This document shows positions 52,797 through 60,449 of a DNA stretch of 64,000 nucleotides, piece after piece (position 1 is the stretch's first letter; each line of letters opens with the position of its first letter). Origin of the DNA: Phaeobacter sp. A36a-5a (GTDB taxonomy: Bacteria; Pseudomonadota; Alphaproteobacteria; Rhodobacterales; Rhodobacteraceae); NCBI RefSeq assembly GCF_037911135.1, contig NZ_JBBLYU010000001.1:1984001-2048000 (forward strand), read 5' to 3'. The translations under genes were made by a program, and so were the position numbers. The notes under the pieces are model-generated. The model saw nothing but the letters and a program-made list of their open reading frames with translations. It was not told where the DNA came from and did not search any database.

Positions 52797-54125
<1,329 letters not shown>

Positions 54126-54237: not shown

Positions 54238-54312
54238 GTGCAGAAACTCGCCTTTGTGGCCTTGCTGATCCTGATGATCGGTCTGGCAACCGGCTGGCTG
54301 GTCGGAGGCTGA
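54238..54312 (+). CDS. 24-residue hydrophobic membrane peptide
   Basis: A GTG at 54238, preceded by the ribosome binding site GGGGGAATAAAC, opens MQKLAFVALLILMIGLATGW-LVGG and a stop at 54312. One membrane helix fills almost the whole peptide, with a single Lys and Gln at the start. It ends 4 bases before the xpaC start, so translation is probably coupled. It resembles small membrane proteins that modulate larger partners, and sits at the head of the XpaC/TelA cluster. Because of its size it could be fortuitous; the strong ribosome binding site and position argue against that. Confidence 0.6.
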   Translation: MQKLAFVALLILMIGLATGWLVGG

Positions 54313-54316
54313 TGGC

Positions 54317-55234
54317 ATGGCGCGGCGTTTTGGCGGCAAATACAGTCCCGACGAACAAGAGCGGAAAGCCGCCGATGAACGGGCTTCGGGCGGCGCGGGC
54401 TCCAGTTCTGGCAGCTATCGCAATGCCCGCGTCGATCCGGTCGGAGCACGCGCCAATCTGATGGCGCTGCCTGCCGGTCTGGTGGCGCTGATGTCCGTTT
54501 TTTCGGGGGCTGCCGGTCTCGCCTTTGGGCTGCTTGCGGCCGCGACGTGGGCCGGATCGGCCTATCTGCTGCGCGACGGGCTGAGGGCCGAGGCCGCTTA
54601 TGACGATCGCAAGGTCGCCCGTCGCCCTGCCCTGCCCCGCAAGATCCTCGCCGCGCTGCTCTGCGGTGTCGGCGCGCTGTTTGCCGCCTGGCGGCAGGAC
54701 CCCGGCGCGCTGACGGCGCTGATCTATGCCGCAGCGGCGAGCGGCCTGCATCTGGCGGCCTTTGGGCTTGATCCCCTGCGCGACAAGGGCGCCGAGGGCA
54801 TCGACGGTTTCCAGCGCGACCGGGTCGCCCGTGTCGTCGAAGAGGCGGAAACCTATCTCTCGGCCATGAAGGATGCTGCTCTGCGCGCCCGTGACCGCGA
54901 GGTCGAACAGCGGGTTGAGGCCTTTCAGGAGGTGGCGCGCGATCTCTTCCGCACCGTTGAGGAAGACCCCCGCGACCTGACCGGCGCGCGGCGCTATCTC
55001 ACCGTCTATCTGATGGGCGCGCGCGACGCCACGATCAAGTTTGCCGATATCTATACGCGCAGTGGCGACCCCCGATCGCGCGAGGATTATCTGGCGCTGC
55101 TGCGCGACCTTGAGGAAAACTTTGCCGCCCGCACCCGCAAGATGCTGCTGGAGGACCGCACCGATCTGACCGTTGAAATCGACGTGCTGCGGGACCGTTT
55201 GCAGCGCGAGGGCGTTCACCTGGACCCCCGCTGA
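54317..55234 (+). CDS. xpaC: XpaC-like protein (5-bromo-4-chloroindolyl phosphate hydrolysis family)
   Basis: The 305-residue protein has a polar N-terminus, two hydrophobic hairpins (about 49-85 and 108-150), and a C-terminal helical domain matching the XpaC family (EEAETYLSAMKDAALRARDRE, ARRYLTVYLMGARDATIKFADI, SREDYLALLRDLEENFAARTR). In Bacillus, xpaC precedes the TelA homologue yaaN, and XpaC-TelA pairs occur in Ter-type stress loci. The name reflects an old screen; no hydrolase active site is seen. It is followed by telA after 22 bases. Confidence 0.88.
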   Translation: MARRFGGKYSPDEQERKAADERASGGAGSSSGSYRNARVDPVGARANLMALPAGLVALMSVFSGAAGLAFGLLAAATWAGSAYLLRDGLRAEAAYDDRKVARRPALPRKILAALLCGVGALFAAWRQDPGALTALIYAAAASGLHLAAFGLDPLRDKGAEGIDGFQRDRVARVVEEAETYLSAMKDAALRARDREVEQRVEAFQEVARDLFRTVEEDPRDLTGARRYLTVYLMGARDATIKFADIYTRSGDPRSREDYLALLRDLEENFAARTRKMLLEDRTDLTVEIDVLRDRLQREGVHLDPR

Positions 55235-55256
55235 CACAGCCATAAGGAACTTCGAC

Positions 55257-56453
55257 ATGTCCAAGACGACCCAGACGAAAGCCGCCCAGGAGGCTCAGCT
55301 GATCTCCGAAATCACCGCGATCGCACTGCCGGAACCGACGGCCGAAATCCAGTCGCTGGATCAGGCCGACGCCGCCACCAGTGCAGACATCCAGTCGCGC
55401 ATGGCGCAGATCGACATGTCCGACAGCAACTCGATCATCAACTTCGGCTCCGGTGCGCAGGCTGAATTGCAACAGATCAGCCAGGCCATGCTGACCGATG
55501 TGCGCAACAAGGATGTCGGCCCTGCCGGCGATTCGCTGCGCAATATCGTCACCACGATCCGCGGCTTTTCGGTGTCCGAACTGGATGTGCGCCGCAAGCG
55601 CAGTTTCTGGGAGCGGCTGCTGGGTCGCGCTGCGCCCTTTGCGAAGTTCACCGCGCGGTTTGAGGATGTGCAGGGCCAGATCGACCGCATCACCGACAAT
55701 CTGCTTGGCCATGAACATCAGCTGCTAAAGGACATCAAGTCGCTGGATCTGCTCTATGCCAAGACGCTGAGCTTCTATGACGAACTGGCGCTCTATATTG
55801 CAGCAGGTGAGGCCAAGCTGGCCGAACTGGACAGCAAGGAAATCCCGGCGCTGGAGGCGGCAGTGGCCGCCGCACCGGAGGCCGATCAGGTGATGCGCGC
55901 GCAGGAGCTGCGTGACATGCGCGCGGCCCGCGACGATCTGGAACGTCGGGTGCATGATCTGAAGCTCACGCGTCAGGTGACGATGCAGTCGCTGCCGTCG
56001 ATCCGGCTGGTGCAGGAGAATGACAAATCGCTGGTGACCAAGATCAATTCGACGCTGGTCAATACCGTGCCGCTCTGGGAGACCCAGCTGGCACAGGCTG
56101 TTACCATCCAGCGCTCCGCCGAGGCGGCGGCGGCGGTGCGCGATGCCAATGACCTCACCAATGAGCTGCTGACCTCCAACGCGGCCAATCTGCGCGAAAG
56201 CAACAAGATTATCCGACAGGAGATGGAGCGCGGTGTCTTTGATATCGAAGCGGTGAAACAGGCAAATGCGGATCTGATCGGCACCATTCAGGAAAGCCTT
56301 CAGATCGCCGATGAGGGCAAGGCCAAGCGCGCCGCCGCCGAGGCGGAGCTTAAGAAGATGGAAGCGGAGCTGCGTGACACGCTGGCCTCGGCAAAGGCGC
56401 GGCGCGACGGGGTCGGCGATACCGCCGCCACGGCGGTTCCCGGCACCGCATGA
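55257..56453 (+). CDS. telA: TelA-family toxic anion resistance protein
   Basis: Starting at the ATG at 55257 the protein has 398 residues, mostly long helices. NIVTTIRGFSVSELDVRRKRSFWERLLG with the KFTARFEDVQGQIDRITDNL segment, and VRLVQENDKSLVTKINSTLVNTVPLWETQLAQAV match the TelA family (tellurite resistance KlaA/TelA, Bacillus YaaN). It probably forms a coiled-coil oligomer in the cytoplasm or on the membrane. Its stop overlaps the DUF2927 gene start by 4 bases (ATGA). The pair with xpaC is conserved in many bacteria; molecular action is unknown. Confidence 0.9.
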   Translation: MSKTTQTKAAQEAQLISEITAIALPEPTAEIQSLDQADAATSADIQSRMAQIDMSDSNSIINFGSGAQAELQQISQAMLTDVRNKDVGPAGDSLRNIVTTIRGFSVSELDVRRKRSFWERLLGRAAPFAKFTARFEDVQGQIDRITDNLLGHEHQLLKDIKSLDLLYAKTLSFYDELALYIAAGEAKLAELDSKEIPALEAAVAAAPEADQVMRAQELRDMRAARDDLERRVHDLKLTRQVTMQSLPSIRLVQENDKSLVTKINSTLVNTVPLWETQLAQAVTIQRSAEAAAAVRDANDLTNELLTSNAANLRESNKIIRQEMERGVFDIEAVKQANADLIGTIQESLQIADEGKAKRAAAEAELKKMEAELRDTLASAKARRDGVGDTAATAVPGTA

Positions 56454-57424
56454 CCGCAGCCGCGCCGATATCGCAACGCGCCCGAAGGCGACGGCTGGTG
56501 CCGGTGCTTGTCGGCGCGCTGGCCGGGACTGCGTTCCTGATGGGATGCGATCCCCTCGCTCAGCGCACCTCGCTGGTGCCGCCGACACGCCCGGCCAATC
56601 TCGCCCCGCAGCCCAAGCCGCCCTCCGCCGAGAGCCAGCGGCTGGCCCGCTACTATGGCGCCCTCCAGCAGGACCTGCTGACACGCGGGCTGCTGCGGAC
56701 CGATGGGGGCGGGCCGGAGACGCCCTATGACGCCGATGATCTGCGCCGGAATTTTGAGCAGATCGCCTTTTACGACGAATATGGCAGCAGCAATCTGCGC
56801 ACCTCCGGCGCGCTTGGGCGCTGGGACGGGCCGGTGCGTCTGCGGGCCGATTTTGGCCCCTCGGTCAGCGCTGAACAGCAGCAGAAGGATCGCGCCACCC
56901 TTGATGCCTATGCCGCCCGGCTGGCCCGGATCACCGGCCATCCGATCAGCACCACCACCAGCCGCGCGCGCGCCAATTTCAACGTGATCTTTGCAGGCGC
57001 CGACGACAGCGCCTATGTCGCCGGCCGCGTGCGGGAGATCCTGCCGTCGATCAGCGACGCCGACCTAGAGGTTTTTGCCAACCCGCCGCAGAGCTACTAT
57101 TGTCTGGTGCGCGCCGGGGGGCTGCAGGCGGATCCATCGTCCTATATGCGCGGGGTCGCGCTTATCCGCGCCGAGCACCCGGATCTGGCGCGGCGCAGCT
57201 GTATCCACGAGGAAGTTGCCCAGGGCCTTGGCCTGCGCAACGACAGCCCGCAGGCGCGCCCCTCGATCTTCAACGATGACGACGAATTTGCGCTGCTGAC
57301 CAGCCAGGATGAGAAACTCCTGAAAATCCTGTACGATCCACGCCTGCGCACCGGCATGTCCGCCGATGAGGCGCGGCCCATCGTGCAAGCCATCGCATAT
57401 GATATCATGGGAGAGCCGCAGTAG
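56450..57424 (+). CDS. DUF2927 lipoprotein
   Basis: The 324-residue protein has a basic N-terminus and a lipobox around FLMGC (Cys33), so it is membrane-anchored and periplasmic, although the signal is somewhat long. The rest fits DUF2927: IAFYDEYGSSNLRTSGALGRW, VRLRADFGPSVSAEQQQKD, NVIFAGADDSAYV, SCIHEEVAQGLGLRNDS and AYDIMGEPQ. The last phrase CIHEEVAQGLGL recalls metallopeptidase-like motifs in the family but the function is unknown. Translationally coupled to telA by ATGA overlap. The position inside a XpaC/TelA/SPFH cluster is notable. Confidence 0.87.
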   Translation: MTAAAPISQRARRRRLVPVLVGALAGTAFLMGCDPLAQRTSLVPPTRPANLAPQPKPPSAESQRLARYYGALQQDLLTRGLLRTDGGGPETPYDADDLRRNFEQIAFYDEYGSSNLRTSGALGRWDGPVRLRADFGPSVSAEQQQKDRATLDAYAARLARITGHPISTTTSRARANFNVIFAGADDSAYVAGRVREILPSISDADLEVFANPPQSYYCLVRAGGLQADPSSYMRGVALIRAEHPDLARRSCIHEEVAQGLGLRNDSPQARPSIFNDDDEFALLTSQDEKLLKILYDPRLRTGMSADEARPIVQAIAYDIMGEPQ

Positions 57425-57480
57425 CGGCTCCGCATTTGCCGACCCCGATGCCCCGGCATCGCCGAAAGAGGATGAAGACA

Positions 57481-58668
57481 ATGGGTATTTTCGACTTTCT
57501 CAAGGGAGAGTTCATCGACGTCATCCACTGGACCGACGACACCAACGACACGCTGGTCTGGCGGTTCGAGCGCGAAGGCCACGCGATCAAATACGGCGCC
57601 AAGCTGACGGTGCGCGAAGGTCAGGCGGCGGTTTTTGTGCATGAAGGTCAGCTGGCCGATGTCTTCACCCCCGGTCTCTACATGCTGGAGACCAACAACA
57701 TGCCGATCATGACCACCCTGCAACATTGGGATCACGGCTTTCAGTCGCCGTTCAAATCCGAGATCTACTTTGTCGACACCACCCGGTTCAATGATCTGAA
57801 GTGGGGCACCAAGAACCCGATCATGGCGCGCGATCCGGAGTTCGGGCCGGTCCGTCTGCGCGCCTTTGGCACCTATAGCATCCGGGTGGTGGACCCGGCC
57901 CGGTTCCTGAGCGAGATCGTCGGCACCGATGGTGAGTTCACCATGGATGAAATCTCCTTCCAGATCCGCAATATCATCGTCCAGCAGGTGAGCCGGGTGC
58001 TGGCAGGCTCCGGCATTCCGGTTCTGGATATGGCTGCAAATACCGCCGATCTGGGCAAGCTGGTGGCGGCAGAGATTTCCGCCACGGTGGCCGAATACGG
58101 CATCGCGATCCCCGAGCTCTATATCGAGAATATCTCGCTGCCCGCCGCGGTCGAACAGGCGCTGGACAAGCGCACCCAGATGGGAATCGTCGGTGATCTT
58201 GGCCGTTACACGCAGTTCTCCGCCGCCGAGGCGATGACCGCCGCCGCCCAGGCGCCCAATAGTGGCATGGGGGCCGGAATGGGCATGGGGATGGGCATGG
58301 CAATGGCCCAGCAGATGGCGCAGATGGCGCAGCCGGGTGCCGCCGCTCATGCAGCGGGTCAGACCAGCGGTCCCTGGGGCGCGCGGCCCGCACCCGCTGC
58401 GCCGCAGGCCGCCGCGCCGGTGGCGCCGCCGCCTCCACCGGTGGAACATGTCTGGCACATCGCCGAGAACGGTCAGACCACCGGCCCCTATTCCAAGGCC
58501 CGACTGGGGCGAATGGCACAGGAGGGCGGATTGCGCCGGGACAGCCTGGTCTGGACACCCGGTCAGGACGGCTGGAAGGCGGCAGGCGATGTCATCGAAC
58601 TGGCGCAGCTGTTCACCATCATGCCACCGCCGCCTCCGCCACCGCCGCCCACACCGCCTGCTGGCTGA
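57481..58668 (+). CDS. SPFH-domain protein (YdjI/virion-core-like) with GYF-like domain
   Basis: The ATG at 57481 gives a 395-residue protein. Residues 1-240 match the SPFH-type virion-core-like proteins of the Bacillus YdjI kind: FIDVIHWTDDTNDTLVWRF, AAVFVHEGQLADVFTPGLYML, IYFVDTTRFNDLKWGTKNPI, VRAFGTYSIRVVDPARFLSE (phase VRLRAFGTYSIRVVD). A methionine/glycine/glutamine-rich stretch (about 262-290) follows, then proline tracts, a GYF-like domain at about 321-379 (VWHIAENGQTTGPYSKARLG) and a proline-rich C-terminus. YdjI recruits PspA to membranes in Bacillus. Here it sits with TelA/XpaC genes rather than pspA. Confidence 0.9.
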   Translation: MGIFDFLKGEFIDVIHWTDDTNDTLVWRFEREGHAIKYGAKLTVREGQAAVFVHEGQLADVFTPGLYMLETNNMPIMTTLQHWDHGFQSPFKSEIYFVDTTRFNDLKWGTKNPIMARDPEFGPVRLRAFGTYSIRVVDPARFLSEIVGTDGEFTMDEISFQIRNIIVQQVSRVLAGSGIPVLDMAANTADLGKLVAAEISATVAEYGIAIPELYIENISLPAAVEQALDKRTQMGIVGDLGRYTQFSAAEAMTAAAQAPNSGMGAGMGMGMGMAMAQQMAQMAQPGAAAHAAGQTSGPWGARPAPAAPQAAAPVAPPPPPVEHVWHIAENGQTTGPYSKARLGRMAQEGGLRRDSLVWTPGQDGWKAAGDVIELAQLFTIMPPPPPPPPPTPPAG

Positions 58669-58683
58669 CATCACACAATCCCG

Positions 58684-58708
58684 AGGGCGCTGCGATCATC
58701 GGCGCCCT
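58684..58708 (+). terminator. Weak hairpin after the SPFH gene
   Basis: AGGGCGC (58684-58690) and GCGCCCT (58702-58708) form a 7-base-pair stem with an 11-base loop followed by TTCTC. It may weaken rather than stop transcription into the cytochrome gene. Confidence 0.5.
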
Positions 58709-58755
58709 TTCTCAGGACAGACCGCAGCCCCTGTGCCACGAAGGACCTTCTGCAT

Positions 58756-59283
58756 ATGACCCGACGCAGCGCGCTCAAATGGCTCCACTGGCTGAGCCTT
58801 GGATTGATCCTCTATTTCTTTCTCGTGGAACCGGAGGAGAACCGCGCCGATCCGGGGCTGGCGCTGGCCACCCACGCGGGCGTTGGCCTGCTCCTTGCCG
58901 TGGTCGTGCTGATCTGGACGCTTGTCTATCTGCGCAAAGGGCTGGCCGGGCGCGCCGGTCCCAAGCTGCCGGGCTGGGCCAGACGATTCCACGGGTTGAA
59001 CCACCGTGTCTTGCAGATCGGCCTGCCGGTCATGGTCGCAACCGGGGCGCTGGCCGGGGTGCTGGCTCCCTTTGCGATCCGCGCTTTTGGGGTGTTGCCG
59101 ATCAATCCGGCCGCAGGCAGCCGCACCCTGCATGAGCTGGCTGAAGAGCTGCATGAACTTGCCTTTGATGCGCTGCTCATTGTCATCGTCCTGCATGGGC
59201 TGTTCCATCTGTGGCGCCATTTCCTGTTGAAGGACAACGCCCTGCGCATCATGGTGCCGAAACTGCTGCATAGATATCTTTGA
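58756..59283 (+). CDS. Cytochrome b561-like membrane protein
   Basis: The 175-residue protein has four membrane helices. Candidate haem-ligand histidines are in LKWLHWLSLGL (helix 1), LATHAGVGLL (helix 2), FHGLNHRVLQIG (helix 3) and LHGLFHLWRHFLL (helix 4), the arrangement of bacterial cytochrome b561 (prokaryotic type). It would move electrons between the quinone pool and a periplasmic or membrane partner. Its stop overlaps or nearly touches the next gene. Being inside an otherwise stress-related cluster is unusual and suggests redox sensing or repair. Partner unknown. Confidence 0.88.
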   Translation: MTRRSALKWLHWLSLGLILYFFLVEPEENRADPGLALATHAGVGLLLAVVVLIWTLVYLRKGLAGRAGPKLPGWARRFHGLNHRVLQIGLPVMVATGALAGVLAPFAIRAFGVLPINPAAGSRTLHELAEELHELAFDALLIVIVLHGLFHLWRHFLLKDNALRIMVPKLLHRYL

Positions 59284-59294
59284 GGCTTCCCCAC

Positions 59295-60449
59295 GTGACC
59301 CAGCCCCCACCGCCGCCGCCCTCCGGCCTGTCGCCTGCCGAGAGCTCCGCCAGCGCCGAGACGCAGGCACCGCTTGAGGAACATCGGTTCCCCTGCGAGC
59401 AATGCGGCGCGGATTATCGCTATGACCCGGAAAACGGCACGCTGACCTGCGATCATTGCGGCCACAGGGAAGCGATCCGATCCGGCCCGTGGCGGGGTGG
59501 CAGCCTGCGGGAGCTGGATTTCGAGACGGCGCTCTCCTCGGGTCTGGCCGAGGCCGACATGGAAGAAACCCGCGTGTTGCGCTGTCCGAACTGCGCCGCG
59601 CAGGTGGAATTTGACCAAAAGGACCATGCGGGGGAATGTCCGTTCTGCGCCACGCCGATGGTCACAAACACCGGGATCCACCGTCATATCAAGCCCAAGG
59701 GCGTGCTGCCCTTCGCCTTTGATGAGCGCAGCGCCCATCAGGCGATGTCGGGCTGGCTGGGCCAGCTGTGGTTTGCGCCGAGCGGCCTGCAACAATATGC
59801 CCGCAAAGGCCGACGCATGGACGGCATCTATGTCCCCTACTGGACCTTCGACGCCGACACCCGCTCGCAGTATCGCGGCCAGCGCGGCACCGTCTATTAT
59901 GTCACCGAAACCGTGATGGTCGACGGCAAGCACCAGTCGCGGCAGGTGCCGAAGATACGCTGGCGGCCGGTCTCGGGGCGGGTGCAGCGGTTCTTTGACG
60001 ATGTGCTGGTGCTCGCCTCCAAGAGCCTGCCGAAAAAGAACACCGATGCGCTGGAGCCCTGGGACCTGTCGGCGCTGGAGCCTTACCAGCCGCAGTATCT
60101 GGCCGGGTTCCGGGCCGAGGCCTATGCGGTGGAACTGGCCGATGGCTACGGCGAGGCGACTGCGCGGATGCGCCGGGTCATCGAACGCGACGTGCGTTTT
60201 GACATTGGCGGGGATCGGCAACGGATCGAACATATCGACAGCGATTTTTCCGATATCACCTTCAAACATGTGCTGCTGCCGGTCTGGCTGGCCGCTTATA
60301 AATATCGGGGCAAGACTTATCGTTTTGTGGTCAACGGGCAATCCGGTCGGGTACAGGGAGAACGCCCCTATTCGGTGTGGAAAATTGCCGCCGCCGTTGC
60401 TCTGGCACTGCTGATCGGCGCTGCCGTGGCCTATTTCGGATCACGCTGA
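59295..60449 (+). CDS. Zinc-ribbon membrane protein (YdjG/TFIIB-type zinc-ribbon)
   Basis: The start is best placed at the GTG at 59295 (VTQPPPPPPSGLSPAES); a TTG at 59280 overlapping the previous stop is possible. The 384-residue protein has a proline-rich N-terminus, two zinc ribbons (about 36-62: CEQCGADYRYDPENGTLTCDHC, and about 95-120: CPNCAAQVEFDQKDHAGECPFC), a large beta-rich middle with YWTFDADTRSQYRGQRGTVYY, and a single C-terminal membrane helix (IAAAVALALLIGAAVAYF). It matches YdjG-type DNA-replication-zinc-ribbon-like proteins that with YdjH and YdjI dock PspA in Bacillus. Here it ends the cluster. Confidence 0.88.
   Translation: MTQPPPPPPSGLSPAESSASAETQAPLEEHRFPCEQCGADYRYDPENGTLTCDHCGHREAIRSGPWRGGSLRELDFETALSSGLAEADMEETRVLRCPNCAAQVEFDQKDHAGECPFCATPMVTNTGIHRHIKPKGVLPFAFDERSAHQAMSGWLGQLWFAPSGLQQYARKGRRMDGIYVPYWTFDADTRSQYRGQRGTVYYVTETVMVDGKHQSRQVPKIRWRPVSGRVQRFFDDVLVLASKSLPKKNTDALEPWDLSALEPYQPQYLAGFRAEAYAVELADGYGEATARMRRVIERDVRFDIGGDRQRIEHIDSDFSDITFKHVLLPVWLAAYKYRGKTYRFVVNGQSGRVQGERPYSVWKIAAAVALALLIGAAVAYFGSR

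Follow-up and report, generated by a model that had tools for sequence, protein, structure and literature searches.

A conserved Rhodobacterales gene cluster in which xpaC-telA adjoins an SPFH/zinc-ribbon pair and a small membrane protein

Sequence comparison indicates that, in Phaeobacter sp. A36a-5a, in nearly all other Rhodobacterales and in some further Alpha- and Gammaproteobacteria, two gene modules so far known separately, namely the xpaC-telA module (adjacent genes of families PF10112 and PF05816) and an SPFH/zinc-ribbon pair resembling YdjI and YdjG of Bacillus, stand together in what is probably a single operon, headed by the gene of a very small, conserved membrane protein. A paper describing this combined arrangement was not found in the open-access literature searched. 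By analogy with systems studied in Gram-positive bacteria, protection of the membrane or envelope under stress is its most likely role.

Results

Organization of the locus

The cluster lies in the 4.05 Mb genome of Phaeobacter sp. A36a-5a at positions 54238-60449 of the window, that is, of the whole 64,000-nucleotide stretch of DNA that was analysed. The original prediction had placed seven plus-strand genes in this interval; all seven open reading frames are present at those coordinates, and Pfam confirms each of the family names assigned to them. The genes of the cluster and their immediate neighbours are as follows.

54238..54312, + strand: small single-pass membrane protein of 24 residues, MQKLAFVALLILMIGLATGWLVGG; hydrophobic short ORF with a coding signature
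54317..55234, + strand: XpaC (PF10112, Pfam 6e-26); two to three N-terminal hydrophobic TM segments and a cytoplasmic domain
55257..56453, + strand: TelA (PF05816, Pfam 5e-109); soluble, with a very long helical hairpin predicted by AlphaFold2
56450..57424, + strand: DUF2927 lipoprotein (PF11150, Pfam 7e-64); predicted matrixin-like fold with altered metal site
57481..58668, + strand: SPFH/Band_7_1 (PF13421, 6e-101) and GYF_2 (PF14237, 1e-19) protein; polyproline tail, no TM segment
58756..59283, + strand: cytochrome b561-like protein (PF01292, Pfam 1e-12); optional passenger
59295..60449, + strand: YdjG-like zinc-ribbon protein (PF11781, Pfam 4e-9); two ribbons, central domain, C-terminal TM segment
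60501..61172, + strand: nitroreductase family protein; variable neighbour outside the core
52797..54125, + strand: RluB-type pseudouridine synthase; conserved upstream neighbour outside the system

The locus probably constitutes a single functional unit and one operon. The peptide gene starts with GTG at 54238 and stops with TGA at 54310-54312, 4 nt before xpaC, telA and the DUF2927 gene overlap by ATGA at 56450, and the gap between the b561 and zinc-ribbon genes is 11 nt, while the remaining gaps measure 22-87 nt. A scan for sigma-70 promoters and terminators, uninformative for this bacterial group, yielded nothing convincing upstream of the peptide gene, and natural fusions among the cluster genes were not encountered in the scanned ORFs. 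Judged by the comparisons described below, the core consists of the peptide, xpaC, telA, spfh-gyf and zinc-ribbon genes, with DUF2927 and b561 as accessories. The closest named loci compared, which are Leisingera- and Roseobacter-like, share about 71-76% DNA identity with the cluster. The product of the upstream rluB-type gene carries a long, low-complexity C-terminal tail rich in Lys, Pro and Gly (window 53600-54125).

Conservation within Rhodobacterales

TelA was detected, nearly always in single copy, in 287 of 293 Rhodobacterales genomes at E values up to 0.001 (286 if a partial match in G085 is left aside), and the SPFH family PF13421 follows the same pattern. When only strong matches are considered, 282 genomes encode both proteins, six encode neither (G011, G085, G106, G215, G232, G283), four TelA only (G081, G185, G200, G247) and one SPFH only (G211), where the genomes are related and thus do not represent independent trials, and where the contig of G011 ends beside the locus. 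XpaC and the zinc-ribbon protein are likewise missing from all six double-negative genomes. These belong to six genera, in two of which sister genomes retain the system (G289, G099), so that at least two of the losses were recent and independent.

Of 40 loci sampled from 39 Rhodobacterales genera, 34 retain the complete order XpaC-TelA-DUF2927-SPFH-zinc ribbon, which far exceeds chance. The exceptions are L057, where the contig ends, L055, which lacks the DUF2927 gene, L052, with no zinc-ribbon gene nearby, and three cases (L062/L165, L071, L086) in which the two halves lie apart. The flanking genes, tadA/rluB and dtd, are mostly conserved around the cluster as well, so that gene neighbourhood by itself might be inertia. 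In eight loci, however, the cluster is kept together away from these flanks, and a Paracoccus megaplasmid (L151, 3881-9272) carries TelA, DUF2927, SPFH and zinc-ribbon genes together with no recognisable XpaC. As far as gene content and order tell, xpaC-telA and spfh-zinc ribbon are mostly inherited, moved and lost jointly. One locus (L164) has kept DUF2927, SPFH and zinc-ribbon genes and lost XpaC-TelA, as would be expected if XpaC-TelA and SPFH-zinc ribbon were two sub-units of one system; taken together with the four genomes encoding TelA without SPFH, it suggests that the two halves can function separately. A contig labelled Enemella evansiae, which is an actinobacterium, also bears a full cluster of the Rhodobacterales type, flanks (rluB/tadA/dtd) included (L201); this assembly is probably mislabelled or contaminated.

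Distribution outside Rhodobacterales

Among 187 sampled Alphaproteobacteria of other orders, only 14 have a TelA match above the family cut-off. In other Alphaproteobacteria (L094, L095, L096, L103, L173), the four large core genes recur in the same order, devoid of DUF2927 and b561, and this four-gene core is likewise present in Gammaproteobacteria, namely in Ca. Competibacteraceae (L174), in two gammaproteobacterial MAGs (L181, L194) and in Granulosicoccus (L200, L210, L217). A further Ca. Competibacteraceae cluster (L183) has no visible xpaC. Relatives were examined for an unconserved gene order that would speak against the cluster; instead, the order is kept both within and beyond Rhodobacterales. 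A search for phage-borne copies gave nothing beyond weak SPFH matches in metagenomic sequences. A pseudomonadotan of another class (L128/L169) has overlapping ORFs in another arrangement, namely a weak SPFH-like ORF, telA and xpaC; the SPFH-like match scores only 33 bits, and that genome has no PF13421 match.

A small membrane protein precedes xpaC

In 92 of 95 loci, xpaC is immediately preceded by a short hydrophobic ORF of typically 24-30 codons, which lies at about -78 to -95 relative to xpaC and whose stop codon is next to the xpaC start or overlaps it. Differences between the ORFs at codon positions 1/2/3 number 1874/872/3173, and identity amounts to 0.27 in frame versus 0.16 in the other frames. 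Gammaproteobacterial clusters possess a counterpart, for example MPKALQRVIGFFILLIAVGMVSCQALLN in Granulosicoccus. By its codon signature and recurrence, we classify the 24-residue peptide as a genuine conserved protein, and XpaC appears to be its likeliest partner.

TelA and XpaC

The AlphaFold2 model of TelA (pLDDT 71, pTM 0.53, that is, of modest confidence) features one very long helical hairpin (residues 127-205/208-324) and a further helix. Comparison with PDB folds using Foldseek returned only generic coiled-coil or alpha-helical matches, none of them confident, and a search for a solved structure related to TelA by sequence found none. A PspA/ESCRT-III fold was considered for TelA and set aside: an antiparallel hairpin is modelled, but Foldseek gave no confident match, so that a PspA- or ESCRT-like role of TelA is without structural support. 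In some genera (L087, L198, L201, L220, L228), a weaker XpaC homologue stands in tandem upstream of xpaC.

SPFH-GYF and zinc-ribbon proteins

Sequence prediction places no TM segment in the SPFH protein. GYF domains bind proline-rich peptides, and all 109 full-length SPFH copies (109/109) end in a PPP-containing tail just behind the GYF domain, with a second PPP run ahead of that domain in 108/109. Given this binding preference, it is plausible that contacts between GYF domains and PPP runs cross-link SPFH proteins with each other or mediate the binding of partners. The zinc-ribbon protein contains eight invariant cysteines forming two ribbons (C34/C37/C52/C55 and C97/C100/C115/C118), followed by a conserved central domain and a C-terminal TM anchor, and is tail-anchored. 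Its homologues adjoin SPFH genes in Enterococcus and others.

DUF2927 is a Rhodobacterales accessory with a predicted matrixin-like fold

DUF2927 genes are found in 87 of the 102 loci having TelA, SPFH and zinc-ribbon genes. They are absent from all non-Rhodobacterales clusters read, and in two loci (L160, L161) DUF2927 is still located between rluB and dtd although all four core genes are gone. Hence the original prediction, which had counted the lipoprotein as an integral part, does not hold in this respect, and gene content marks DUF2927 as a Rhodobacterales addition to the core. Nearly all orthologues carry a lipobox, and in 18 of 37 the +2 residue is Asp or Glu. When the DUF2927 model (pLDDT 90.6) was compared with the PDB, the top 26 matches were all MMP-type catalytic domains, mostly with a probability >0.9 and with target TM scores up to 0.67, the best E value being only 1.6e-3. 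Features shared with matrixin (MMP) metzincins are the predicted fold, the position of the catalytic Glu and a Met-turn-like SIF segment. In place of the zinc motif HExxHxxGxxH, however, the cluster copy has E254-E255-xx-Q258-xx-G261-xx-N264, where alignment to L253, a distant PF11150 member, assigns the invariant Glu, Gln and Asn (E254, Q258, N264) to the three zinc histidines, and where the catalytic Glu, E255, is invariant. An active zinc protease was rejected as an assignment, and since all three histidines are replaced, DUF2927 is probably not a zinc protease. Sequence and model rather suggest that it is a pseudo-protease or that its metal site is altered. PF11150 resembles a matrixin-like metzincin family, in that distant members (L253, L256) keep HExxHxxGxxH or a close form; L253 has HELAHGFGFAH, and its Pfam matrixin match is weak and below cut-off.

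Cytochrome b561 is an optional passenger

The b561-like protein of the cluster matches PF01292 and exhibits several TM helices and likely haem-ligand histidines. The b561 profile matches 20 of the 102 loci having TelA, SPFH and zinc-ribbon genes, and a few more divergent b561 genes are recognizable by eye. The slot between spfh and the zinc-ribbon gene may hold b561 of either of two subtypes, RidA-like, SnoaL-like, phosphatase-like or other genes, or nothing, where the names of the inserts (e.g., in L054, L063, L073, L083, L084) were read from the sequence and not obtained by domain search. The long form of b561 possesses H11, H40, H83, H147 and H151, the likely haem ligands, and the short form has lost H40. 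On account of its frequency and its replacement by unrelated genes, b561 was rejected as the integral core part that had been proposed; it is an optional passenger and would not be needed.

Discussion

Relation to known systems

In common with the pspA-ydjGHI operon of Bacillus subtilis (PMC8581546), the cluster encodes an SPFH protein that has no TM helix of its own beside a zinc-ribbon TM protein, which we liken to YdjG by its paired CxxC ribbons, its C-terminal TM segment and the adjacency of its homologues to SPFH genes. In contrast to pspA-ydjGHI, the cluster has XpaC, TelA and a small membrane peptide. It encodes neither PspA, the sole PF04012 match of the genome being about 1 Mb away, nor YdjH, as Pfam scanning assigned every cluster gene to other families. 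Furthermore, the SPFH protein of the cluster has a GYF domain and PPP tail, whereas for YdjI a zinc-finger motif close to the C-terminus has been described. The xpaC-telA (yaaN) pair of Firmicutes, represented by lmo1966-lmo1967 of Listeria (PMC12791056), has these two families side by side, in the order seen here, but forms an operon of two genes; in the cluster, the conserved peptide gene precedes xpaC-telA, and SPFH-GYF and zinc-ribbon genes are linked to it. The Ter stress-response systems of Anantharaman et al. 2012, as conveyed in PMC7824862, share TelA with the cluster, and Pfam detected no TerB, TerC, TerD, TerF or nucleotide-synthesis genes among the cluster proteins. The central claim of the original prediction, that xpaC-telA is joined to a YdjI/YdjG-like SPFH/zinc-ribbon pair, thus describes a true combination, with an order conserved inside and outside Rhodobacterales.

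A candidate membrane-protecting scaffold

In B. subtilis, YdjI depends on two membrane proteins, YdjG and YdjH; it recruits PspA to the membrane, and without YdjI membrane fluidity is lower (PMC8581546). In Listeria, xpaC-telA belongs to the LiaSR regulon and is induced by the membrane-active bacteriocin GarKS; mutation of telA raises sensitivity to nisin 4-fold and to tellurite 2-fold (PMC12791056). Aravind and colleagues place TelA among the components of sub-membrane structures (PMC7824862). Based on these three lines of evidence, membrane protection is our best guess, and we consider the chances about evenly balanced that the cluster encodes a scaffold at the cytoplasmic face of the inner membrane which protects membrane or envelope under stress.

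Within such a scaffold, the zinc-ribbon protein would bring the SPFH oligomer to the membrane in the way that YdjG, together with YdjH, does for YdjI in Bacillus. XpaC and the peptide would hold TelA at the same membrane patch, and the GYF domains may cross-link SPFH subunits, or bind partners, via the invariant PPP tails. The coiled coil of TelA would form a sub-membrane coat in the position of Bacillus PspA, an idea based on position within the system and not on fold, and DUF2927 would serve in Rhodobacterales as a periplasmic accessory with a matrixin-like fold devoid of the zinc triad. It is tempting, albeit rather unlikely to be correct throughout, to speculate that TelA, tethered by XpaC and the 24-30 aa protein, replaces PspA as the coat that a YdjI/YdjG-type SPFH receptor recruits, that SPFH rings are cross-linked by GYF-PPP contacts between neighbouring subunits, and that in Rhodobacterales the zinc-less matrixin-fold lipoprotein reads the periplasmic side. 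With a PspA homologue encoded about 1 Mb away, recruitment of PspA in trans is possible as well.

Alternatively, and possible though we doubt it, two independent modules may merely share the locus, one being a YdjI/YdjG-type receptor recruiting a PspA encoded elsewhere and the other an xpaC-telA pair conveying tolerance of toxic anions or bacteriocins, with adjacency reflecting co-regulation and not contact. The SPFH/zinc-ribbon pair does occur without TelA (in Vibrio, Comamonas, Tsukamurella and Enterococcus plasmids) and, in L164, without XpaC and TelA; many other Pseudomonadota have TelA without SPFH, both pairs are encoded apart from each other in three genomes (G439, G487, G654), and Phaeobacter sp. 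A36a-5a does encode a PspA. However, both pairs are missing from six genomes of six genera, as opposed to five genomes with only one of them, and the joint arrangement recurs in Gammaproteobacteria.

The original prediction also envisaged an integrated envelope and redox sensor spanning periplasm (DUF2927), membrane (b561) and cytoplasm. The recurrence of two b561 subtypes in the same slot, the likely haem histidines kept by the long form, and the prevalence of DUF2927 with its nearly universal lipobox and, in about half of the copies, Asp/Glu at +2 are in line with such a sensor, yet we consider it improbable: most clusters are devoid of b561, unrelated genes take its slot, the short form has lost a histidine, and DUF2927 is absent from non-Rhodobacterales clusters and outlasts loss of the core. 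As b561 and DUF2927 are not integral, redox sensing is unsupported, and what stands of the earlier interpretation is the combination of two halves in conserved order. More improbable still is a locus devoted strictly to tellurite or metal-oxyanion resistance, as the family name of TelA and the tellurite sensitivity of the Listeria mutant (PMC12791056) might suggest, since telA is a near-universal single-copy gene of an order and not a sporadic resistance trait, since Ter-domain genes are absent from the cluster, and since in Listeria the effect on nisin sensitivity exceeds that on tellurite sensitivity (PMC12791056).

TelA and XpaC are widespread proteins for which there is no agreed mechanism and for which the analysis found no related solved structure. 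Their tie to a receptor of the SPFH/zinc-ribbon type, encoded in an operon that nearly every member of a major marine order has in single copy, provides a concrete and testable setting in which to ask whether TelA acts at the membrane as PspA does in Bacillus. New handles are offered by the small membrane protein, which is conserved, and by the DUF2927 lipoprotein with its predicted matrixin-like fold and E/Q/N site, and the part-losses that occur naturally in relatives represent ready-made genetic comparisons. Finally, on a Vibrio coralliilyticus plasmid (L147, 980-7041), the SPFH/zinc-ribbon pair is divergent and adjoins genes with a TIR domain and a TRAFs-binding domain, possibly a defence neighbourhood.
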